Below, in pieces: positions 29,611-41,284 of a stretch of 42,585 bases of DNA (its first letter is position 1; the number at the start of each line of letters is the position of its first letter). The stretch is from Roseomonas sp. Its GTDB lineage: Bacteria > Pseudomonadota > Alphaproteobacteria > Acetobacterales > Acetobacteraceae. The DNA lies in the NCBI GenBank assembly GCA_020249125.1, contig JADCGG010000143.1, positions 1 through 42,585 of the forward strand, written 5' to 3'. The position numbers and the translations under genes are program-made. The notes beneath the pieces were generated by a model. The model did no database searches, was not told the DNA's origin, and was given only the letters and a program-made list of their open reading frames with translations.

Positions 29611-30438
29611 CTAGGGGTACTCGTCGTAAATCAGGACTGGATTGATGGTGTGCGATGGGCGCGGCCCGCCACGGATGGGGGGCACAGCCACTTCCGGGCC
29701 GCGCACAATGAAGGAATTCAGCAGCTGATCGAGCCCGTCGCGGATCCTGCGCCAATGGGCCAATTGGCGACGCTCCAAAGACGTCTGCACGACCAGGCCG
29801 CGAAACACGCGATACCATTGGCAGCTGATCGGCTGAAAGGGCGTCTCAGTCGGTTGCTGATCGAAACGCGGGCTCACATTGCAATCAAAGAATTCCGGCC
29901 ATTCCTCACCGGTTTCGGGATTGCGGGCCAGTTCGACCGGCTTGAAGATATCGCGCGGCAACGGGCGGGTTTCCGCCGCACTGCCGCGCGCCGGGAAATA
30001 GATCAGCCCATCGGGTGGCGGTGGGCCATTGGGGCCATCCAGGTGGGTGCTGGCCTCCTTGGTTTGCACTATGCCCCAGGTGTGGCGGTTCTGTAGGGTG
30101 CCGCTGACCTGCTCGGCTGCGCTGATATTCCAGGCGACACTCACGCGCACCCGCATGGCCTCACGCCAATATCGCTCGGGCGGCAGGCCAATCAGCCGGA
30201 TCGGGCTAAGGTCATCCACCCGCAGGCCCAGATCGAAGGACCCATCACCGTCCCGGATATGCAAATGCGCGCGCGGAATGCGGAACAGGATGCCACGCAC
30301 TTCTGTTTCCATCGCCACCCAGCGACGGTCCTGTGCAGCCACCGGCTGGAATGGCCACAGCATCACAAGCAGCAGCAACACCAGGCTTCCTGTAGCGGGC
30401 ATGCGTTGGGCGGTATCCCATGGCAAAACCGGCATCAT
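29611..30438 (-). CDS. Hypothetical secreted protein
   Basis: This protein is about 275 aa from the ATG at 30438, which overlaps the azlD stop (ATGA); a start at 30402 gives a cleaner signal peptide, MPATGS followed by a Leu/Val-rich core and AAQ. The family is not recognised. The mature part is beta-rich in appearance with many Trp, Pro and Arg residues (RRWVAMETEVRGILFRIPRAH, RLIGLPPERYWREA) and two cysteines (FFDCNVSP and PISCQWYRVF) that could form a disulfide. There is no lipobox. Coupling to azlD suggests cotranscription with the AzlCD exporter, but a shared function is not evident. Confidence 0.75.
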   Translation of the reverse strand: MMPVLPWDTAQRMPATGSLVLLLLVMLWPFQPVAAQDRRWVAMETEVRGILFRIPRAHLHIRDGDGSFDLGLRVDDLSPIRLIGLPPERYWREAMRVRVSVAWNISAAEQVSGTLQNRHTWGIVQTKEASTHLDGPNGPPPPDGLIYFPARGSAAETRPLPRDIFKPVELARNPETGEEWPEFFDCNVSPRFDQQPTETPFQPISCQWYRVFRGLVVQTSLERRQLAHWRRIRDGLDQLLNSFIVRGPEVAVPPIRGGPRPSHTINPVLIYDEYP

Positions 30439-30767
30439 GCTACCCCTGCCAGAATGGCGCGTAGCGCCAACATCGCGGCCACCCCCACCAATAGTGCCGG
30501 CAGCAAATTGCGCCCGAAGCCAAGGCACACCGCAACACCCACCCCAAGCCCGCCAAGCCGCGCCGCCAGCGGCACATCCGCCAAGGCCCCGGATGGCGCG
30601 ATGATGGCCAGCATGACAAAGGCCGAAAGCGTTGCCTGCGCGATCGCTGTCGCCCAGGCAATCACTGGATGATCCGCGCCGAGGCCGCCCGCCAGCCACA
30701 CGCCCGCACTGCGCAGCAGCAGGCAGGCAAGGGCAGTGAGCGCGAGTGCGATATCAGCCGCCTCCAC
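30435..30767 (-). CDS. azlD: Branched-chain amino-acid exporter small subunit AzlD
   Basis: This protein is about 110 aa from a GTG at 30767, placed inside the azlC 3' end; a longer frame to 30803 begins with unrelated residues. It consists almost entirely of three to four hydrophobic segments, with a conserved RSAGVWL near the start and ALLVGVAAMLALRAIL at the end, as in AzlD/YgaH. Together with AzlC it would export branched-chain amino acids or related compounds. It overlaps azlC by 14 nt and the following secreted-protein gene by 4 nt. Confidence 0.85.
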   Translation of the reverse strand: MEAADIALALTALACLLLRSAGVWLAGGLGADHPVIAWATAIAQATLSAFVMLAIIAPSGALADVPLAARLGGLGVGVAVCLGFGRNLLPALLVGVAAMLALRAILAGVA

Positions 30768-31467
30768 GCGCGCGCCCCCAGAAAAACGCGATGGTGCCGC
30801 CAATGATCCCCGCCGCCAAAAGCCCCATGGAGGATGGCAGGATGAAGGTCAGGCTGGCCGCCGCAGCGCCGCACAGAATCGCGCGGCGCGGCGCGGGCTT
30901 ATCCACATCCGCGGCCAGCAGCAGCGCATAGTAAAGCGGATTGACGAATAACAGCGCCGCGCGCGCGTGATCATCCAGCATCCCCGCGACATAAAACCCC
31001 GCGAGTGCCGCAAGCCCCGCCACCACCCAGCTTGTCAGCCCGAAACCTAGAAACCACGCAAGCCGCGCGCGTTCCGCGATTTCAGGAAAGGCGCGCATCG
31101 CCGCGGCCCAAGGTGTCACCGCGATGAAGGGAATGGCGGGGATCAGGCGCTTGCGCCCCGCCGTGCCGAATAGCGGCGTGATGGCAATCGCCATGGGCAG
31201 GAAACGCGCATTCACCGCAATGGCGCCCATGACTGCCGGCGCAATGCCGCCGACAAAACCCGTGCTGGCGGCCTGCACCAACACAAGCTGGCCAGGCATG
31301 CCGTAAATCGCCCAGCAGGCAATCAACGCCCAGCCTGGTGGCAGCCCGGCTTCGCGCACCGCGGCACCGAAGGCCAAGAAGGTCGCCGCCATGGCAACGC
31401 CTGCCGCGCCAATGGCATCCCGCGCGCCAAAAAACGCCGCACCGCGCGGAGAGGTTACGGCATTCAT
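30754..31467 (-). CDS. azlC: Branched-chain amino-acid exporter large subunit AzlC
   Basis: This 237-aa integral membrane protein shows the AzlC/YgaZ hallmarks: GARDAIGAAGVAMAATFLAFG at the N-terminus, AIYGMPGQLVLVQAAS and ATAVNARFLPM-like AIAVNARFLPMAIAI, with seven or so hydrophobic helices. It forms an exporter with AzlD. The start ATG lies 76 bp after the Hhe-like helicase stop and has only a weak upstream ribosome-binding match; a short 12-codon frame ends at the same ATGA but is not convincing. Confidence 0.9.
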   Translation of the reverse strand: MNAVTSPRGAAFFGARDAIGAAGVAMAATFLAFGAAVREAGLPPGWALIACWAIYGMPGQLVLVQAASTGFVGGIAPAVMGAIAVNARFLPMAIAITPLFGTAGRKRLIPAIPFIAVTPWAAAMRAFPEIAERARLAWFLGFGLTSWVVAGLAALAGFYVAGMLDDHARAALLFVNPLYYALLLAADVDKPAPRRAILCGAAAASLTFILPSSMGLLAAGIIGGTIAFFWGRARGGG

Positions 31468-31543: not shown

Positions 31544-34500
31544 TCAGATTTTCACCACGCCAGCGCCAATCAAGGCTGCCAGGCGCGCCGCGATGGCGGT
31601 TTGCTGATTGGCATCCAAGCCCAATGCACGATGAATGCCGGCAGCGAGTTCCGCTTCCGTCGTGGCGGGGCGCAGCGCCAGAAGTTTTTCGGCGGCAGCA
31701 GCGATTTCGCGCGGTGATACGGAAGCGGCGCGGCGGAGATGCACGCCGGCATTGCGGCGATCTCGCGGGGCAATCACGCTGCCTTCCGCCAGCAGAAAAC
31801 CCTGTTCTTCCTTCACGCCGTGCAATTGTCGCGCAAGTTGCAGCGCCTGGCGCAAGGCATCGCGCGCGGGCGTGGGCAGCGCATCCAGCCCCCATAAAAG
31901 CCGGATACGTTCACCGAGGCTTTCAGTGGTGATGGGCGCTTCCACCGCGATGATTTCCGCAAGCAACCCGGCAAGTGCAGCGAAGGGCATATCGGCTATG
32001 GCGGTTTCTTTTGGCACTTCCGGCGCGGCTTCGCGGTAGGGTTCCGCCAACCCGGTTTCCGGTGCGGGCGCTGCTGCTTCAGGCGTGGTGGCGGGCGCGG
32101 CGCCGAGCAATGTGGCGATGCGCGCGGCCTCGGCCTCTGGCCGCCCATACCAGGAAAGCGACCAGGCACGCGCCAGCTTCCAGCCCATGGCTTGCAGTGC
32201 GCTGTCGCGGCCCCTTTCGCGGTCCCGCGCGCAACGCAGCGCGGCCCAATCCCCGGCATCCGCTTCAATGCCCAGCACGTAATTTCCGGAATCGCGCGCC
32301 GCGACATCCAGAAACAGGCCCGCCATGCCAACGCGCGGCACGGCTTCCTTGCCCGCGGCTTCAATCGCCTTACCAATCGCCGCTGCCAAAGGCGCAGCTT
32401 GGGCTTTGGCGACGCTGGTGCGGGATGCATCCCCAGCGGCGGCGAAGGCGAGGAAATTTTTGAGTGTCGCCACACCGCGCCCGGAAGCGCGCGCCAGATC
32501 AATGTCATCGGCGCTGATGGAAGAAAAAACAATGCAGCGCTTCTTGGCGCGCGTGATCAGCACATTCAGCCGGCGTTCACCGCCATCGGCGGAAAGCGGG
32601 CCGAAGCGCATGGCAAGCTTGCCATCAGCGCCGCGCCCATAGCCCACCGATATCATGATGGAATCACGTTCGTCGCCCTGCACGTTTTCCAGGTTTTTCA
32701 CGAAGAATGGCTCATCAGGATGGGCGCTGAAAAACGCTTCTGTATCCGGGTTTTCGCGCCGCGCCGCTTCAACCGCGTTCAGGATGGCATCGCGTTGACG
32801 GATGGAAAACGCCGCGACGCCAAGCGTATCGCCGGGCGTTTCCCGCGCATGGGCAATGACAGCTTCAGCCACTGCGCGCGCTTCTTCCGCATTGGTGCCA
32901 GTGCCGCCCGTATCAAACCGCCCGTCAACGCGGCGCAAGGACAAGCCCAGCGCGGCCGACCGTGCGCGCGGTGATGGCAGAATGAAAAGCCGATTGTCGT
33001 AAAATTCCGCGTTGGATGTGGCGATCAGGCTTTCATGCCGGCTGCGGTAATGCCAACGCAGCATGGCCGAAGGCAGGCCGCGCGCATTGTAGAGGCCCAG
33101 GATGCTTTCCACATCACGCGCCGCGACAACATCGCCGGTATTCTCAGCGGTTTCTTCGCCCTCCTCACCGGTCATGCGCTGAAAGAAGCGCGTGGGCGGC
33201 ATTTGCTTGTCATCGCCGACAACCACCACTTGCCGGCAACGCGCAATGGCGCCCAAGGCATCCACGGGTTCCACCTGGCTCGCTTCATCAATCACCAGCA
33301 AGCCAAAGGAAAGCCCAGGCTTCAAGCCATGCGGAGGCGCCAGGAATTGCGCCACCGAAAGCGGGCTCATCATGAAAATCGGCTTGGCTTTTTGCACCGC
33401 CTGGGAAGCGCGCAGCAGCAATTCGCGTACCGGCAAATGGCCGCGCTTCTTTTCCATCTCGCCACGCAATACCACCATGCCCGGCGCGCCATCACGCACT
33501 TCCTTCACGCGCAGCGCATGGGCGTAAGCGGCTTCGGCGCGCGTGAGTGTAATGCGCGCACGATCCGCTTCGCGGAAATCTGCCACCAGCCGATCCGCCG
33601 CCGCGCCATCAAAAGCAGCCAATTCCGGATGCTGCGCCATGGCGACGCGCAGCAAGCCTTCATGCAGCGCAAAGGAAAACACATCCTCTGCCGCTTCGGG
33701 CGCGACGCGACCATCGGCCAAGCGTTCAAGTAACGGTTCCAACCCCGGCGCCGAGGCAGCAGCGCGGCGCCAGCCAAGCCAAGCATCCAGCGCTTCCGGC
33801 GCCGCCGCCCAATCGCCAAGCCGCGCGGCAAGGGCGCTGAAGGAAGCTTCATCGCTGCCGAAAGCGCCACGCGCATCAAACCCTGTCGCCTGCTGTAATT
33901 CCTGCCAGGCATCAAGGGCTGCTCGAAGCGGGGCAGGCTCGGCAGGCTTGGCGCCATCGGCGAGCGCCGTCAGCGCCGCCACGCCATGGGTTTTGCGCCA
34001 CGCAAGCAAGGCGATAAGCGGCGCGGGGTCACTCGCCTCACCCTGCCAAAGATTACCAAAGGCTGCCCGGCCCAGCGCATCGTCCTTGCGCAATGCCTCA
34101 CGCGCGGCCTGTCCGGCAAGCACGGCATCCAACGCGGGCAAAGGGTTTTCCGCATCACGCGCAATACGCGCCGCCAGCGTTTTGGCATCACGCCGCGCGC
34201 CGGAAAGAAAACCGAAAACGCCACCGGCTTCCGCAAGCGTGGCGCGCGCTTCGGCAATGCCCGCCACATCCAAAGCGCCCGGCAAAAGCTGCGGATCAGC
34301 CTTGGCTTTCTGGAAAGCGTAGAGTGCTTGCACCAACGCTTCAAGCGGCGCCACATCGCCTGCCCAGGCTGGGTGTTTGATTGCCAGCGCATCATGCGCG
34401 GGTGCCGTCGCCAAGGCTGGGTTCAAGGCAAGTGCGCTTTCCGCTGCCTTCGGCCCAGCCTCTGCCCCCAGCGCCGCACCCGCCGCGGCAAAGGCGCGAA

Positions 34501-36055
34501 TCCATCCCGGCAATTTCGCCAGCAGCCTGTCCGCATCAGCAGGGCCGATATCCCCCATCACGCCGCGCCAGGGGCTCTGCGCGCCACCCGAGGCCGCGTA
34601 ATCCGCCAGAAGCTTCACCGCATCGCGCCGCGCTTCAATCGTTGCCGCATCCCATCCCGCCGCATCCAGGGAAAATTCTGGCGCCGCCACGCCGCGGCTC
34701 CGCAGCGCCACCAGCGCACCAATCACCTGATGCAGCGCCATGCCCGAACCACCGACTTCCGCGCGCATCGCCGCCGCATGGCGATTGATCCGTCCACGCA
34801 GCGACCCCAGGCGGCGCACCACCGCATCGCGATCCGGCTTGGGCGGCATGGGCAACGCAAGTGTTGCGCGAAGTTCATCCAGCACCGCGCGCTTGGATTG
34901 CTTTTCCGAATGCAATTCCAGGCAGGCGGCACCGAGGCCAATGCTTTCCAGCCGGCGCTTCACCACTTCAAGTGCCGCGAGTTTTTCCGCCACGAACAAG
35001 ACGCTTCTGCCATCCAGCACGGCCTGGGCAATGATATTGCTGATGGTCTGGCTTTTGCCGGTGCCTGGCGGACCTTGGATCACGACATGCCCGCCACGCC
35101 TGACGGCTTCCGCTGCCAGCGCCTGGCTGCCATCCACATCCATCACATGATCCAGCCGCTCCACCGGGATTTCGGCATCCACATCGGCGTCATCGGCAAA
35201 GACCGGCGGGATGGACAGCGCCTCTCCACCCACCAAGGCGCGCACCATGGGGTGATCGGCGAGGCCAGGATTTTCCTCAGGCCCAAGGTCGCGCCACATC
35301 AGGAATTTGGCGAAGGAAAAAAGCCCGATCGCCAGCGCATCTGCATCAACGCGCCAATTTGCGCGTTCCGTCACCAAGGCCGCGATGCTTTCCGCCCAGC
35401 CGGTTGGGGAATAGGTATCCGCATCGAAATCCGGCAGCACGGTCTTGAAATTCACCTTGAGCATTTCGCGCAAGGAAAGGTTTTCCGCGATATCGCCCAC
35501 CGCACCGCGCAGCTTGAAATGCTGCGAAACTCCTTCGCGTTCCAAAGCCACCGGCAGCAGCGCCAGCGGTGCGCGACGTTCGGTCTCGGGCGTGGCGGGA
35601 TCGCGCCAGATCAGCGCGCCAAGCGCCAAATAAAGCGTGGGCACGCCGGTTTCTTCGCGTGCGGTGCGCGCATCCTGCATGATATCGCGCAATCGGCGCA
35701 CCAAATCCGAAGCGGGCAATTGCACGCGCAGCTTGTCATCACGCTGATAGTCTTCCCGCGCCGCATCGGCTTTCGCGGTGCCAACCCCTTCCGCCTTCAC
35801 CTTCACACTGCGCGCACGGCGCGGCTTTCCGGGGCTTGCTTCCGCCGGCGCGGCTTCAGGCGCCGTAACTGAGGCTTCAAAGCCAAAGGCGCGGCCTGCT
35901 TGCAGCGCGCCAAGGACGAAATCCGCATCCTCATCATCAATGATCATAACGCCGCGCGATGCGCCGGGCTTGGGCAGGGAAAGCAGCCGATTGCGGGTGG
36001 AAAGATCAAGCAGGCCCCGGCGGGCTTCTTCCAAGGCGGTGTGAAGATCCGTCAT
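31544..36055 (-). CDS. DUF4011/SF1 helicase/Vsr-like nuclease/DUF3320 protein (Hhe-type defence)
   Basis: This is a 1503-aa cytoplasmic multidomain protein. Residues 5-250 are a DUF4011-type N-terminus (RRGLLDLSTRNRLLSL). An SF1 helicase follows, with Walker A GPPGTGKS at 328-335, a long insertion rich in Ala and Leu, Walker B VIDEASQ with Asp923-Glu924, NVQGDERDSIM near 1125 and NVLITRAKKR near 1165. At about 1245-1310 is a Vsr/MTES_1575-like nuclease with LFLDVAARD and GIEADAG (a PD-(D/E)xK-like Asp/Glu pair). A DUF3320-like domain spans about 1355-1503. This order matches the Hhe antiphage protein reported among DUF4011-helicase-Vsr-DUF3320 fusions. It starts 4 bp after a small membrane-protein gene. 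Motifs look intact. Confidence 0.9.
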   Translation of the reverse strand: MTDLHTALEEARRGLLDLSTRNRLLSLPKPGASRGVMIIDDEDADFVLGALQAGRAFGFEASVTAPEAAPAEASPGKPRRARSVKVKAEGVGTAKADAAREDYQRDDKLRVQLPASDLVRRLRDIMQDARTAREETGVPTLYLALGALIWRDPATPETERRAPLALLPVALEREGVSQHFKLRGAVGDIAENLSLREMLKVNFKTVLPDFDADTYSPTGWAESIAALVTERANWRVDADALAIGLFSFAKFLMWRDLGPEENPGLADHPMVRALVGGEALSIPPVFADDADVDAEIPVERLDHVMDVDGSQALAAEAVRRGGHVVIQGPPGTGKSQTISNIIAQAVLDGRSVLFVAEKLAALEVVKRRLESIGLGAACLELHSEKQSKRAVLDELRATLALPMPPKPDRDAVVRRLGSLRGRINRHAAAMRAEVGGSGMALHQVIGALVALRSRGVAAPEFSLDAAGWDAATIEARRDAVKLLADYAASGGAQSPWRGVMGDIGPADADRLLAKLPGWIRAFAAAGAALGAEAGPKAAESALALNPALATAPAHDALAIKHPAWAGDVAPLEALVQALYAFQKAKADPQLLPGALDVAGIAEARATLAEAGGVFGFLSGARRDAKTLAARIARDAENPLPALDAVLAGQAAREALRKDDALGRAAFGNLWQGEASDPAPLIALLAWRKTHGVAALTALADGAKPAEPAPLRAALDAWQELQQATGFDARGAFGSDEASFSALAARLGDWAAAPEALDAWLGWRRAAASAPGLEPLLERLADGRVAPEAAEDVFSFALHEGLLRVAMAQHPELAAFDGAAADRLVADFREADRARITLTRAEAAYAHALRVKEVRDGAPGMVVLRGEMEKKRGHLPVRELLLRASQAVQKAKPIFMMSPLSVAQFLAPPHGLKPGLSFGLLVIDEASQVEPVDALGAIARCRQVVVVGDDKQMPPTRFFQRMTGEEGEETAENTGDVVAARDVESILGLYNARGLPSAMLRWHYRSRHESLIATSNAEFYDNRLFILPSPRARSAALGLSLRRVDGRFDTGGTGTNAEEARAVAEAVIAHARETPGDTLGVAAFSIRQRDAILNAVEAARRENPDTEAFFSAHPDEPFFVKNLENVQGDERDSIMISVGYGRGADGKLAMRFGPLSADGGERRLNVLITRAKKRCIVFSSISADDIDLARASGRGVATLKNFLAFAAAGDASRTSVAKAQAAPLAAAIGKAIEAAGKEAVPRVGMAGLFLDVAARDSGNYVLGIEADAGDWAALRCARDRERGRDSALQAMGWKLARAWSLSWYGRPEAEAARIATLLGAAPATTPEAAAPAPETGLAEPYREAAPEVPKETAIADMPFAALAGLLAEIIAVEAPITTESLGERIRLLWGLDALPTPARDALRQALQLARQLHGVKEEQGFLLAEGSVIAPRDRRNAGVHLRRAASVSPREIAAAAEKLLALRPATTEAELAAGIHRALGLDANQQTAIAARLAALIGAGVVKI

Positions 36056-36059
36056 GCGG

Positions 36060-36221
36060 CTATTTTCTCCGCAAGGCGAAGGTAATCACCAGGACAATGC
36101 CGACCAGCACCAGAATGGCCATCATGCCCTGCACAACTTCAAAATTCGGGGAATCGCGATGGATGAAAATGGACGCAGCCGCGGCGCCCAGCATCATCAG
36201 GGTTTGTAGAATCCATTCCAT
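36060..36221 (-). CDS. Small membrane protein upstream of the Hhe-like helicase
   Basis: A 53-codon frame from the ATG at 36221 (GAGG 7 nt upstream) to TAG at 36060 encodes two hydrophobic segments. The first is at about residues 4-20 (ILQTLMMLGAAAASIF), then a polar turn IHRDSPNFEVVQ, a second at about 33-50 (MMAILVLVGIVLVITFAL), and a basic end RRK. The two-helix hairpin, the ribosome-binding site and the 4-bp spacing to the helicase start support a real gene cotranscribed with it. The family is not recognised. It might anchor or sense for the helicase-nuclease, or be a housekeeping membrane peptide; either is inference. Confidence 0.75.
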   Translation of the reverse strand: MEWILQTLMMLGAAAASIFIHRDSPNFEVVQGMMAILVLVGIVLVITFALRRK

Positions 36222-36300
36222 GCAAGCGCCTCATTGCCCTTTGACTGTCTCGGCCGTTTCGCAGTCTTGCATATCTCCCGCCCCTGTCGAAGGGTGATTT

Positions 36301-36825
36301 TCAGGTCTGCGGCGGGACGGCAGGCAGGATGCGGTTCTCCAGGCTTTCGATCCGCTCAAGCTGCGCTTTCAGCAGCGAAATCAATTCCGCCACCTGCTGT
36401 TCACGCAGCAAATCGATTTTTTCGTGCAGCAGGCTGATCTCGGCCTCGGCCCGGATATTCACCTGATAATCCGCGATGGACCGGATGCGATCTATATCAG
36501 CCTGCCTGTTCTGACTCATCATGATGATCGGCGCCGTATAGGCGGCCTGGAAGGACAGCATCAGGTTCAAAAGGATGAAGGGATAGGGGTCCCAGGCACC
36601 GCCGCCCAAAGCCACATTGGCGATCAGCCAGGCAACCAATAGCCCGGATTGGATCAGGATGAAGCGCCAGGAACCGACAATCGCGGCGACCAGATCGGAC
36701 AGTCTTTCGCCAAGGGTCAATTCTGGCGTTGGGCCATCGCCACGCCGCCTTTCGCGCGCGCGGGACAAGGCCGAGCGTAAATGCGTATGACGCCGGTGAT
36801 TGGGCTGATCGGAATGTGCGGCCAT
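36301..36825 (-). CDS. DUF1003 membrane protein
   Basis: This 174-aa protein has a basic N-terminal tail (HRRHTHLRSALSRARERRR), then the DUF1003 core: LSDLVAAIVGSWRFILIQ, two membrane segments at about 50-72 and 82-104, the signature DPYPFILLNLMLSFQAAYTAPIIMMSQNRQ, and a C-terminal helix rich in Glu and Leu (about 125-168) likely to form a coiled coil. The function of the family is not known. It lies 79 bp upstream of the small membrane-protein gene on the same strand; that gap has only a weak hairpin and no convincing promoter or terminator, so it could be part of the same transcript. Confidence 0.92.
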   Translation of the reverse strand: MAAHSDQPNHRRHTHLRSALSRARERRRGDGPTPELTLGERLSDLVAAIVGSWRFILIQSGLLVAWLIANVALGGGAWDPYPFILLNLMLSFQAAYTAPIIMMSQNRQADIDRIRSIADYQVNIRAEAEISLLHEKIDLLREQQVAELISLLKAQLERIESLENRILPAVPPQT

Positions 36826-36888
36826 GCTGGGTCTCCCCTCAGGAAGGCCCAGCCTGCACCTCTCATCCCGAAAAAGACATGATAAAAA

Positions 36889-38310
36889 TCAACTCCGCCC
36901 GTAAGTATCCTCAAAGCGCACAATGTCATCTTCGCCCAGGTAGGAACCGGACTGTACCTCAATCAGCGTCAGCGGAATCTTGCCGGGATTTTCCATGCGG
37001 TGGATGCAACCCAACGGCAGATAGACGCTTTCATTCTCCCGCAGCATGATTTCCTCACCATCGCGGCGGACAATGGCGGTGCCGGACACCACCACCCAAT
37101 GCTCCGCGCGGTGGAAATGCTTTTGCAGGGAAAGCTTGGCGCCGGGGCGAACTTCGATCTTCTTGACCTGGAAGCGATCACCCATGATCAGGCCTTCATA
37201 ATGGCCCCAGGGGCGATAGGCGCGGCGATGTTCGGTGGCTTCCTTGACGCCGCGCGCCTTCAGCCGGTCCAGCAGCTTTTTCACATCCTGCGCATGGTCG
37301 CGATGCATCGCCAGCACAGCATCATCCGTCACCACCACCACCGCATCCTTAAGGCCGATCACGCCGGTCAGCATGGCTTCGCTGCGCACATAGCAATTCT
37401 GCGTATCCACCAATTCCACCGGACCCAAAGTGGCATTGCCGGCGTTGTCCTTCGGCTGAATATCCCAAAGCGCGGCCCAGGAACCGATATCAGACCAGCC
37501 AATAGCCGCCGGCACCACGGCAGCCTTTTGCGTGCGTTCCATCACGGCATAGTCAATGCTGATCGAAGGTGTTGCGGTGAAGGCCGCCGCTTCCAGCCGA
37601 ATGAAATCGCCATCGCGCGTGGCGCCCGTGACAGCGGCGCGCACGCCCTTCAATACATCCGGCGCATGGGCTTCCATTTCCGCCAGCATCGTGGCGGCAG
37701 TGGCAACGAACATGCCGGAATTCCACAAATGCCGACCGGTTTTCAGAAACTCGGCCGCGCGCGCCGCATCGGGCTTTTCCACAAAGCGCGCAATGCGCTG
37801 CACCCCATCACTGCCCGGCAACGCATCGTCGGCTTCAATATAGCCATAGCCGGTCTCGGGCGCGGTGGGCTTCATGCCGAAGGTGACAATCGCCCCCGCT
37901 TGCGCCGCCGCTGCGGCCTTATGCAAAGCCGTTTGCAGCGCCGGCGCATCGCCAATCGCGGCATCGGCGGCCATGAACCACAGCACGGCGCCAGGCGCGG
38001 TTTCCTCGGCAATCAGGGCGGCAGCGGCGATGGCGGGCGCGCTATTGCGGCCCACCGGTTCCAGAACAATCGCCGCACCCTTGTCGCGCAATTGTTCGGC
38101 CACCAGGAAGCGATGCGCTTCATTGCACACCACCATGGGGGGCAAAAACCCCTCACCCGTCCCGCGCGCCGCGGTTTCCGCCAGCATGGTCTTGTCGGAA
38201 GCAAGCGGCCAGAATTGCTTCGGATAGCTTTCCCGCGACAGCGGCCAAAGCCTGGTGCCGGTGCCGCCGGACAGGATCACGGGCAGGATCGGGGGGGATT
38301 TGGTCGTCAT
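36889..38310 (-). CDS. manC: Mannose-1-phosphate guanylyltransferase / mannose-6-phosphate isomerase
   Basis: This is a 473-aa bifunctional enzyme of the AlgA/XanB/ManC type. The N-terminal nucleotidyltransferase domain has LSGGTGTRLWPLSRESYPKQ at residues 13-32 and FVEKPDAARAAEFL in the middle. The C-terminal cupin isomerase domain (about 350-473) has YRPWGHYEGL, KLSLQKHFHRAEHWVVVSG and LGCIHRMENPGKIPL. It makes GDP-mannose for exopolysaccharide, LPS or fucose-type sugars. The ATG at 38310, with GGAGAA about 10 nt upstream, is preferred to a TTG at 38328. No other polysaccharide genes are in the window. Confidence 0.94.
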   Translation of the reverse strand: MTTKSPPILPVILSGGTGTRLWPLSRESYPKQFWPLASDKTMLAETAARGTGEGFLPPMVVCNEAHRFLVAEQLRDKGAAIVLEPVGRNSAPAIAAAALIAEETAPGAVLWFMAADAAIGDAPALQTALHKAAAAAQAGAIVTFGMKPTAPETGYGYIEADDALPGSDGVQRIARFVEKPDAARAAEFLKTGRHLWNSGMFVATAATMLAEMEAHAPDVLKGVRAAVTGATRDGDFIRLEAAAFTATPSISIDYAVMERTQKAAVVPAAIGWSDIGSWAALWDIQPKDNAGNATLGPVELVDTQNCYVRSEAMLTGVIGLKDAVVVVTDDAVLAMHRDHAQDVKKLLDRLKARGVKEATEHRRAYRPWGHYEGLIMGDRFQVKKIEVRPGAKLSLQKHFHRAEHWVVVSGTAIVRRDGEEIMLRENESVYLPLGCIHRMENPGKIPLTLIEVQSGSYLGEDDIVRFEDTYGRS

Positions 38311-38444
38311 GGGCCAAGAATTCTCCAATTCCCCGGCGACTTAGGGGCAAAACCGGGCAAAGCCAAGGCAAAGGCGCGGGGCGTTTCGCGAATCCCGCTT
38401 CCGCATTAACTTCCCGCGCTGCGCAACCGGAAAGTCGCTTCGCC

Positions 38445-38897: not shown

Positions 38898-39410
38898 TTA
38901 CCCATCGCGGCGTGCCTGGGCGCGCTTGTTCTGGGCAGAGACGCTGCCAACCAGCGCGCCATGCACGTGGTTCCTGCCCCTCGCATTCCCCTTGTTCGGC
39001 ATGCCGGCGCTGGCACCGAAGCCGGCCGCGGGATGCTGCGCGCGCAGCGCCTGACGGCGGGCGAATGCTGCCTTGAGCGCCGCGCGGTGTTCTTCGCGGC
39101 GGCGTTCCTGCGTCAGTTCATCAAAACGGCTATTCACGCGCTTCAGCGCCGACGCATAAACCTGCTTGCGGCGGGTTGCCTTGCCGGCTTCCGCATTCGC
39201 TGCTGCGCGGGCATCGCCCTTGCCGCGCTTGGCGCGGTGGCCTTCCCGGATCAGGTCGCGCAGCTTTGCGTGTTCGGCGCGCAGCCTGGTGGCGATGGCG
39301 CGAAGCTCCTCAGGCGGCAGGGCGGCGATGGCCGGCTGATGGGTAGGCGCAATGAGGGAGAAGGCATCATGGCCCAGAAGCTCACGTTCTTCGCGCTGAG
39401 AAATCGCCAT
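38898..39410 (-). CDS. Basic, helical hypothetical protein
   Basis: This 170-aa protein is not recognised. Residues about 25-60 and 75-125 are Ala/Arg/Lys/Glu-rich helices with coiled-coil character (LPPEELRAIATRLRAEHAKL, RVNSRFDELTQERRREEHR). The protein is strongly basic, and the C-terminal 40 residues are Gly/Asn/Arg-rich and probably disordered. There are no membrane segments. A good ribosome-binding site (AAAGGA) precedes the ATG at 39410. A nucleic-acid-associated role is possible from composition only. It lies 105 bp downstream of the ketopantoate reductase-like gene on the same strand; that gap shows nothing more I can name. Confidence 0.65.
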   Translation of the reverse strand: MAISQREERELLGHDAFSLIAPTHQPAIAALPPEELRAIATRLRAEHAKLRDLIREGHRAKRGKGDARAAANAEAGKATRRKQVYASALKRVNSRFDELTQERRREEHRAALKAAFARRQALRAQHPAAGFGASAGMPNKGNARGRNHVHGALVGSVSAQNKRAQARRDG

Positions 39411-39515
39411 GGCATTTGGTCCTTTTTGTTGACGGTCATCCGTTGCTACCGGGCAGGGCGGGCCTGTCCATGGTGGATACGTCCCGAAGCTGTGCCCAGC
39501 GTGCAGGGCGTGGCG

Positions 39516-40496
39516 TCATCGATACAACCCCGCCGCCCGCGCGGCCTGGGTTGCCAGCGCAACCATCAGCGCGAAATGCGGCATGTGCACGCCCAAAGCC
39601 TGGCCAAGCTGCAAGGGCGCGGTAAACAGCGCATCAATTTCCATGGGCCGGCCCAATTCCAGATCCTGGAGGATGGAAGGCTTATGCGCGGTCTCCGCAA
39701 AGCGGCGCATCCGCACTTCGCCTGGCACTTTCAGATCATGCCCAAGGGCGCGGGCCAGGGCCGTGCCCTCATCGGAAATCTTGACGCCGGCTTCGAAAAT
39801 CGCTGGGTCAGCCAGTGTCGCCTGCATATCCTGGCGCGAGAGCAGGCAAAGCGGCCCCACCACCATATTGCCGAGCAATTTGCCCCAGATGCGGTGGCGG
39901 ATATTGGCAACCGCATCGGTTGGCATGCCGCCCGCGCTCAGCAGCGCCGCGAGTGCCTGAGCACGCGAGGAAACCACGCCATGTGGCTCCCCCAGAAACA
40001 GCTTCAGATCAGCATGTTCCGAGGTGACAATGCCCGGCGCCACCACCGCGCTCGCGGCATAGATCACGCCGCCCAGGCTGCGCTCTACGCCGATGGCGCG
40101 GCGGAGCGCATCGTCCGGGTCCAGCAGCGGCAGCCGCTTGCCTTCCAGGGCACCGCCAATGCCATCGAAATACCACCAGGGGATGCCATTCATGATGAAG
40201 ACAACCGGCGTATTGGGGCCAAGCAAAGGTGCAATCCCCGCCGCCACCGCAGGCAAGGCGGGCGCCTTTACCGTGACCAGCACGGCATCCACGGGGCCGA
40301 TCTCGGCGGCGCTTTCCGCGGCCTGCACTTGAAAGGTTTGATCGCCTTCAGCGGTGCGCAGCGTGATGCCCCGCGCCCGCATCGCGGCCAGATGCGCGCC
40401 GCGCGCAATGACACTAACCTCAGCCCCTGCCGCCGCGAGCCTTGCTGCCAGATGCGCGCCGATGGCGCCGGCGCCATAGACGCAAATGCGCTTCAC
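39516..40496 (-). CDS. 2-dehydropantoate 2-reductase-like oxidoreductase
   Basis: This is a 326-aa NADPH-dependent reductase of the ApbA/PanE family. The Rossmann GAGAIG motif sits at residues 7-12 of RICVYGAGAIGAHLAARLA, and the C-terminal helical domain has RHRIWGKLLGNMVVGPLCLLSR, with the catalytic-type lysine in WGKLLGN, and the family-typical KPSILQDLELGRPMEIDAL. The start is a GTG at 40496 in a 4-nt overlap (GTGA) with the creatininase gene stop; a longer frame to 40634 reads through that gene and is rejected. Its operon partners suggest it may act on a 2-oxo acid other than ketopantoate; no panB or panC is near. Confidence 0.88.
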   Translation of the reverse strand: MKRICVYGAGAIGAHLAARLAAAGAEVSVIARGAHLAAMRARGITLRTAEGDQTFQVQAAESAAEIGPVDAVLVTVKAPALPAVAAGIAPLLGPNTPVVFIMNGIPWWYFDGIGGALEGKRLPLLDPDDALRRAIGVERSLGGVIYAASAVVAPGIVTSEHADLKLFLGEPHGVVSSRAQALAALLSAGGMPTDAVANIRHRIWGKLLGNMVVGPLCLLSRQDMQATLADPAIFEAGVKISDEGTALARALGHDLKVPGEVRMRRFAETAHKPSILQDLELGRPMEIDALFTAPLQLGQALGVHMPHFALMVALATQAARAAGLYR

Positions 40497-41284
40497 GGCG
40501 CGTGGTCGCGGAGTTGCGCGCAGATCGCAGCCCCGGCGGCGACAAGCTGTTCCACCATGCGCGCCCCGTGAGTCGCATTGGCCCCGCGTGGATCGGGTGC
40601 GGCCACGCCGCCGGACGCCACTTCTTCCACCCACATCGGCACGGCGAATTCCACCCCATGGGCGCGAATGGCGCCAAAGCCGGTGGGCGGCACGCCAAGA
40701 TAAGGCCCCGTTGCTTCACGCGGGCGCGCCTTTTCCGGGCAGCATAATTCAGGCTTCAGCGCCATCGTCACAGATGCAACCGGGTCTCCGCCATGGCCGA
40801 AGGTGATGGGCTGCCCGCCCAATTCACCATGCAGCTTGCCGGCTTCCCGCCAAAGGTGCAGCGCCGGGATGATGACCCCATGCCGATGGCGCATGCTGCG
40901 CGCAGCCGCATCAGCGGGCGCGATGGTGCCAGCATGGCCATTCACGATCATGATGCGCCGCGTACCGATTTTGATGAAGGCTTCGGCCATTTCCTCGATC
41001 ACGGCGGTCAGGGTTGCGACCGAAAGGGTGATGCCACCGGCGACGCCGGCGAAGAAATCCTCACCACCAAAGGGAATGGCAGGGGCGACCAGCGCATCCG
41101 CGCCCTTGGCATAGGCGCTGGCGGCGATGCGGCAGGCGATTTCCTCGGCAACCAGATAATCGCCCATGGGCAAGGCCGGGCCATGGGTTTCCAGGCTGCC
41201 CATGGGCAGGATAGCAACCGCCCCGGCAGCGAAGCGGGAAGCGACTTCAGGCGCGGTCAATTCCGCGATGCGATGCGTGGTCAT
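40493..41284 (-). CDS. Creatininase family amidohydrolase
   Basis: This 263-aa metal-dependent amidohydrolase shows the creatininase opening LPMGSLETHGPALPMGDYL with metal ligands Glu32, His34 and Asp42, a second block MIVNGHAGTIAPADAAA, and ITFGHGGDPVASVTMAL, where the family normally has HAGEAETS-like residues; the third block is a variant. Substrates in this family include creatinine, 3-dehydro-carbapyrimidines and F420 precursors, so the exact amide is unknown. It overlaps the downstream reductase gene and the upstream M20 gene by 4 nt each, forming a tightly coupled three-gene unit. Confidence 0.88.
   Translation of the reverse strand: MTTHRIAELTAPEVASRFAAGAVAILPMGSLETHGPALPMGDYLVAEEIACRIAASAYAKGADALVAPAIPFGGEDFFAGVAGGITLSVATLTAVIEEMAEAFIKIGTRRIMIVNGHAGTIAPADAAARSMRHRHGVIIPALHLWREAGKLHGELGGQPITFGHGGDPVASVTMALKPELCCPEKARPREATGPYLGVPPTGFGAIRAHGVEFAVPMWVEEVASGGVAAPDPRGANATHGARMVEQLVAAGAAICAQLRDHAP

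Follow-up and report, generated by a model that had tools for sequence, protein, structure and literature searches.

A conserved two-helix membrane protein gene beside a DUF4011 helicase gene in Roseomonas: a contact that is probably secondary

Introduction

When a short gene ends a few nucleotides before a large defence-type helicase gene, do the two products work together, or have the genes only come to lie side by side? The question is raised by a stretch of 42,585 nucleotides from Roseomonas sp. (contig JADCGG010000143.1), referred to here as the window. A sequence-only reading of this DNA had proposed that a small membrane protein gene is the overlooked half of an Hhe-like defence system, making it a two-component system at the envelope. 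The Hhe architecture consists of DUF4011, an SF1 helicase, a Vsr-like nuclease and DUF3320. We address the small gene and its family, its relation to the helicase gene and to its other neighbours, and the standing of the helicase itself. Genomes are named with G and loci with L, and many of the helicase loci with an L name come from genomes that also carry a G name.

The small gene and its product

The features that the argument needs are the following.

36060..36221, minus strand: gene of a 53-aa two-helix membrane protein (the small gene), with the loop DSPNFEVVQGM, from frame conservation and AlphaFold2
36229..36232, minus strand: GAGG, 7 nt ahead of the small-gene ATG and its likely ribosome-binding site
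36067..36070, minus strand: GGAG in the last codons of the small gene, possible ribosome-binding site of the helicase gene, 11 nt before its ATG
36056..36059, minus strand: 4-nt spacer from the stop of the small gene to the helicase ATG, constant in length and variable in sequence in 18/18 clade genomes
31544..36055, minus strand: 1503-aa protein with DUF4011, SF1 helicase, MTES_1575 (Vsr-like) nuclease and weak DUF3320 (the helicase), from Pfam
36301..36825, minus strand: DUF1003 gene (PF06210), 79 nt upstream of the small gene
36889..38328, minus strand: mannose-1-phosphate guanylyltransferase (ManC-like), upstream neighbour in the clade
30754..31467, minus strand: AzlC gene, downstream of the helicase gene, neighbour in the clade

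The frame from 36221 to 36060 on the minus strand encodes MEWILQTLMMLGAAAASIFIHRDSPNFEVVQGMMAILVLVGIVLVITFALRRK (53 codons). Its stop codon, TAG, occupies 36062-36060 and the helicase ATG begins at 36055, which leaves a gap of 4 nt. A hydropathy scan of the small protein gives two membrane segments, and AlphaFold2, run with 21 aligned members, places helices at residues 2-19 and 27-52 (mean pLDDT 82.3, pTM 0.53). The small protein is therefore modelled as a two-helix hairpin, predicted to span the membrane. In these respects the sequence-only reading was right, as coordinates, hydropathy scan and AlphaFold2 agree on a 53-aa two-helix frame ending 4 nt from the helicase start, and a likely counterpart of the ribosome-binding site claimed for the small gene is the GAGG at 36232-36229, 7 nt ahead of the ATG. 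An AGG- or GGG-bearing stretch lies at the same position in 18 clade flanks.

The clade of the window comprises 19 genomes, of which 18 were tested for frame conservation with one locus each; the nineteenth, G009, which is 78% complete, gave no small-gene match. The small frame is open, and keeps its length and its 4-nt gap, in 18/18 of the clade genomes tested. The same reading had proposed to look for synonymous-biased substitution, and the bias is there, with a pooled pN/pS of 0.26 over the 18 genomes. The conserved frame, length and gap together with this ratio make the small frame more than chance, and a chance open frame was ruled out on these grounds. The small gene is under purifying selection. 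The other five frames over the small gene have pN/pS values of 1.35, 1.67, 2.23, 2.44 and 0.29 in the same 18 genomes. The value of 0.29 belongs to one antisense frame, and an overlapping antisense gene was considered and rejected, since the ratio is tentatively ascribed to opposed third codon positions and the frame is interrupted by a stop in 1/18.

Among the neighbours, pN/pS is 0.12 for the helicase, 0.10 for AzlC and 0.24 for DUF1003 (13 sequences each); ManC was left out because its pooled value disagrees with its median. The small frame was also ranked against 328 overlapping 53-codon windows taken from the helicase and AzlC genes, and its pN/pS exceeds that of 319 of them. As only 9/328 reach its ratio, the small frame is constrained, yet less so than most of its neighbours.

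A family of short hairpin proteins

A single-protein search found the small gene in 34/35 genomes of the genus, window included, with the incomplete G009 as the exception. A 21-member profile matched, at E<=0.01, 60 of the 299 Acetobacteraceae genomes searched. Thirteen of these were dropped as having a weak match (E of 5.7e-4 or higher) that lies in a frame of 404-1081 codons, and 47 were kept, 7 of them within the genus. In a class-wide draw the same profile matched 5/240 genomes, one being the genome of the window itself and another, G431 (E 0.007), being set aside. Outside the genus, this makes 43 small-positive genomes (40 + 3). Forty small-gene loci were fetched, 38 from these 43 genomes and 2 from within the genus. 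The small frame measures 50-67 codons across them, and the loop pattern D-[AS]-x-N-F-x-V-[VIA] fits strictly in 27/40.

No convincing match to the family was found in Pfam and PADLOC (searched with the window protein), NCBIfam (21 members) or PHROGs (two members). The HGxxPAAW family (NF041681), a model of 55 positions, is weakly matched by 5/21 members, but the score of 20.3 bits is below the cut-off of 33. In PHROGs, no match was obtained for the window protein at E<=0.1, and its relative at L072 has one, at 0.036. A 56-aa relative searched against 72,556 plasmid records gave no match at E<=0.01. The best explanation of these searches is an unnamed family of putative inner-membrane hairpin proteins of about 50-67 aa, found among some Acetobacteraceae and seldom outside them. 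Almost every genome of one genus (34/35) carries a member of this family of short membrane proteins, to which no searched library assigns a name at cut-off.

The small gene and the helicase gene among relatives

If the small protein were the membrane component of a defence system, anchoring or triggering the DUF4011 helicase-nuclease at the membrane, the two genes should travel together. Within the genus they appear to do so. The helicase is matched in 35/35 genomes, some as fragments, so both genes are nearly universal; the 4-nt gap is constant in the 18 clade genomes tested, and the small gene also adjoins the helicase gene in G004 and G231. These points speak for two-component defence, although presence in all genomes of a genus is unlike a typical mobile defence gene.

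Joint conservation of the two genes over relatives was, however, not found. An orthologous helicase was defined as a match of at least 52% identity. Among the 43 small-positive genomes outside the genus, 10 have an orthologous helicase, 3 have a distant one only, and 30 have none at E<=1e-20, which leaves the small gene without an orthologous helicase in 33/43. In some genomes the helicase match is incomplete: that of G340 covers 90 residues at a contig end, and the helicases of G251 and G198 are in two pieces. The sequence-only reading had held that relatives keeping the helicase intact while lacking the small frame would refute a partnership, and such relatives were found. Orthologous helicases, 52-67% identical and in frames of 1439-1498 codons, are present in G069, G086 and G102, which the small-family profile does not match. 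Additionally, the loci L079 and L080 keep DUF1003, an antiporter gene and the helicase gene, with about 30-50 nt between DUF1003 and antiporter and no small gene at these loci. No co-occurrence signal was detected between small gene and helicase (10/43 small-positive genomes against 3/18 small-negative ones, Fisher p 0.74, the 18 small-negatives having been hand-picked).

The two genes can also be far apart. G316 carries both on one contig, DUF1003 and the small gene at C8:34504-35015 and the helicase gene at C8:484945-487941, about 450 kb away; at this helicase locus (L078) an antiporter gene ends 3 nt before the helicase gene. Likewise, G001 has the small gene and DUF1003 on contig 2, and antiporter and helicase on contig 1. 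No member of the small family was found at 35 helicase loci outside the Acetobacteraceae, the profile matches in L130 and L105 (E 0.16 and 0.55) being taken as chance. Some short hydrophobic frame lies within about 300 nt upstream in 9 of these 35 loci, with no evident common sequence.

The proposal of a two-component system thus divides in two. A real and conserved two-helix gene does abut the helicase gene, in 18/18 clade genomes, whereas its role as the membrane half of an Hhe system is spoken against by the antiporter gene lying between the two in relatives and by the 33/43 genomes without an orthologous helicase. The observation was correct; its interpretation as a two-component defence system seems, from the distribution of the genes, over-reaching and is not supported. 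We regard such a system as very unlikely.

A proposed loss of an intervening antiporter gene

How, then, did the small gene come to abut the helicase gene? The gene order in the clade of the window is ManC, DUF1003, small gene, helicase, AzlC, whereas in most of the rest of the genus it is DUF1003, small gene, Na+/H+ antiporter (PF00999), helicase. The antiporter is present at E<=1e-30 in 15/35 genomes of the genus and undetected at that threshold in the other 20/35, namely all 19 of the window clade and G004.

Forty-one helicase loci were compared within the Acetobacteraceae. In 17 the antiporter comes next upstream (gap 1-195 nt), and in another 17 it is the small gene, 4 nt away; L075 has the small gene with a 71-nt gap, L087 has neither, and 5 loci begin inside the helicase and are uninformative on its 5' side. 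For a defence-type helicase, a CPA1-type Na+/H+ antiporter is a surprising gene to find so regularly alongside. The antiporter-bearing loci are L070-L074, L076, L078-L081, L083, L084, L086, L092, L094, L098 and L126, and it lies within 20 nt of the DUF4011 helicase gene in 9/17 of them. At L203 and L173 there is a 4-nt overlap between the antiporter and helicase frames.

On a helicase tree of 40 rows, made with a quick method and with SH-aLRT values only and no bootstrap, the state in which the small gene abuts the helicase gene needs three changes: in the window clade, in N. alkaliterrae (L075) and in G231 (L175). L075 and L175 stand among antiporter-bearing rows, and the window clade is sister to such a group. 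The row of L175 is long, the rows of L202 and L203 are incomplete and have an unusual composition, and L202 is labelled as antiporter although its antiporter is a remnant. This remnant is the one short frame between small gene and helicase gene in G331 (L202). It joins counterparts of roughly residues 1-100 (94% identity) and 488-522 (86% identity) of the G302 antiporter, which has 522 residues; the middle is gone, and the frame looks like antiporter loss under way. G331, G302 and G231 are genus-mates. Between the small gene and the helicase gene of G231 (L175) there is a weak trace of an antiporter C-terminus (E 0.042).

We propose that the antiporter gene that separates the two genes in relatives was lost, and that the small gene would in this way have come against the helicase gene. 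No antiporter match was found at the outgroup helicase loci, so the choice of loss rather than gain is an argument of parsimony only. The contact with the helicase gene is probably secondary, produced by loss of the intervening gene, and the small protein is probably no partner of the helicase. Gene loss can, on this reading of the loci, produce a convincing and probably misleading operon with a defence-type gene.

DUF1003 and the other neighbours of the small gene

The neighbour upstream of the small gene scores 130.5 bits against PF06210, above the cut-off of 27.4 bits. Sixteen genomes of the genus lie outside the window clade, and 12 loci from these were examined for overlap with the small gene: the DUF1003 stop overlaps the small-gene start by 4 nt in 11/12, the twelfth being without DUF1003. 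In another genus, g120, 4/5 loci show the same 4-nt overlap and the fifth an overlap of 1 nt; L083 has a 3-nt gap. The gap is 79-89 nt in 17/18 loci of the window clade, a range from which L048 is excluded because its DUF1003 frame is broken, making the reading of 374 meaningless. In this genome (L089 3227-3743; L048, G026) DUF1003 is split across two frames, and the small gene and helicase gene are intact. In both genera, then, the small gene is directly preceded by a DUF1003 gene, usually with stop and start overlapping outside the window clade. Beyond the genus, DUF1003 stands beside the small gene in 5/38 loci, all of g120, and 29/40 small-positive genomes of the family have a DUF1003 somewhere. 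G004 keeps the small gene and no DUF1003 was found in it; in G231 DUF1003 is not next to the small gene. The 5/38 loci and these two genomes indicate that the partnership is not general.

Our preferred explanation, which we consider likely, is that the small protein belongs to an envelope hairpin family paired with DUF1003, that its contact with the helicase gene arose from antiporter loss, and that any link it has to the helicase would be one of expression, not of function. In the inner membrane the small protein would cooperate with the DUF1003 product, and it would be neither sensor nor effector of the helicase. As to what the pair does, a role in acid/ion or envelope stress is offered as a tentative best guess, by analogy: a DUF1003 protein of Group B Streptococcus is described as resembling an acid and multistress tolerance protein of Lactococcus (PMC4839699), and the presumed ancestral neighbour of the small gene is a Na+/H+ antiporter.

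That antiporter suggests a further possibility, namely that the Na+/H+ antiporter found nearby in many Acetobacteraceae has the small protein as an accessory subunit. An antiporter homologue lies downstream on the same strand in 15/40 loci, and starts 30-70 nt past the small gene in L178, L202 and L203, L202 being the remnant. The small gene is kept, however, in 19/20 genomes of the genus without a detected antiporter, and L079 and L080 retain the antiporter without a small gene at the locus. A subunit role is improbable on these counts, slightly less so than two-component defence.

Other genes recur around the family. By BLAST cluster, 17/40 loci, L170-L173 included, have a TctA-like tricarboxylate-transporter frame on the upstream side of the small gene, and it was confirmed by Pfam at L170. 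TctA was considered as a general partner and set aside, as there is none among the window proteins scanned by Pfam. In several genera the genes upstream are TctB-TctA, a short-chain dehydrogenase or an ABM-domain protein. In the window, the frames at 38961-40571 (plus strand, 536 aa) and 29611-30699 (minus strand, 362 aa) have no Pfam, NCBIfam or PADLOC match, and parts of them are retained in some clade loci.

The boundary between the small gene and the helicase gene

An explanation by expression directs attention to the boundary itself. In the window clade, the 4-nt gap may make translation of the helicase depend partly on translation of the small frame, and translational coupling of this kind is plausible. 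A partial dependence of this sort would make the link between the two genes one of expression and not of function. The boundary also prompts a stronger view, in which the small frame acts mainly in cis in this clade, termination and reinitiation feeding ribosomes to the helicase start. It fits with the stop 4 nt before the ATG in 18/18, with a spacer fixed in length and varying in sequence, and with the GGA plus A-run that relatives carry within the last codons of the small gene. Additionally, the synonymous divergence of the small frame is 0.255, lower than in 328/328 overlapping 53-codon windows of helicase and AzlC, a rank that is not a p-value because the windows overlap. Such low divergence may reflect a further role at the boundary with the helicase gene and hints at a signal overlapping the frame in 36060-36221. 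On the other hand, RNAalifold gave no covariation support at the boundary, with 2/62 pairs changed on both sides, and a conserved RNA structure there was rejected on this result. Moreover, the amino-acid sequence is conserved also where the small gene does not lie near the helicase gene, so the protein itself is selected. We judge a mainly cis-acting frame to be unlikely, though the least unlikely of the rivals weighed, and prefer the hairpin paired with DUF1003, with partial coupling in the window clade. A membrane-tethered genome-surveillance unit, into which the coupled pair would have turned after antiporter loss, the small protein reporting envelope stress to the helicase, is judged as improbable as the two-component system.

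No sigma-70 promoter was found in 35950-37000, where 0.5 were expected in shuffles, and the same 1051 bases hold 2 terminator-like sites against 1.0 expected. A terminator-like stem with a T-rich tail lies inside the small gene at 36170-36190, on the coding (minus) strand.

The standing of the helicase

The helicase passes the Pfam cut-offs for DUF4011, SF1 helicase (AAA_11/AAA_12) and MTES_1575, and DUF3320 scores 23.0 bits against a cut-off of 25. The domain order is like that of Hhe (NF042953 and the PADLOC Hhe model), with DUF3320 just under its cut-off. The Hhe-like label given earlier is a loose one: the protein scores 827.3 bits against NF042953, far from the curated cut-off of 2000, and the ProA and PDC-S37 models score higher. 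The NCBIfam ProA model (NF058533) gives 1191.4 bits, short of its cut-off of 1500. The top-scoring model is PADLOC PDC-S37 (PDLC05009), with 1449.1 bits and a nearly full-length match (residues 3-1493 on profile positions 5-1527 of 1550). The 40 helicase rows, gaps ignored, show no variation in the Walker A/B residues, in the RRLNVL-RA motif or in the nuclease positions D1250, E1264 and D1266. A difference from PDC-S37 and ProA appears in residues 1239-1314, where five outgroup rows have YH after the nuclease E-x-D and the six Acetobacteraceae rows shown have it replaced. The names of anti-phage models would in any case say nothing of the activity of the helicase here.

Plasmid records matching the helicase at E<=1e-50 number 325, all below 60% identity. 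Given these identities and the presence in 35/35 genomes of the genus, the helicase behaves as a core gene here. Its universal presence, and its position directly after an antiporter gene in relatives, raise the question of whether this branch belongs among defence genes. Our literature search found no paper pairing any two of DUF4011, Hhe and DUF3320, and none naming PDC-S37; DUF4011 is mentioned in three of the papers searched and DUF1003 in two.

A comparable arrangement is described in a study of Pseudomonas aeruginosa (PMC10250203), where a DUF4011 gene is likewise core, in every isolate studied, and where one flank of cDHS1 holds this large gene and a conserved small hypothetical gene. 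Those genes, by contrast, flank a defence hotspot, and the small genes are likened by position only.

Longer DUF4011 helicases (1628-2052 codons, 35-42% identical) occur in 3/35 genomes of the genus and in a few others (G003:C36, G014:C19, G026:C2, G046:C1, G094:C87, G121:C13 and G324:C12).
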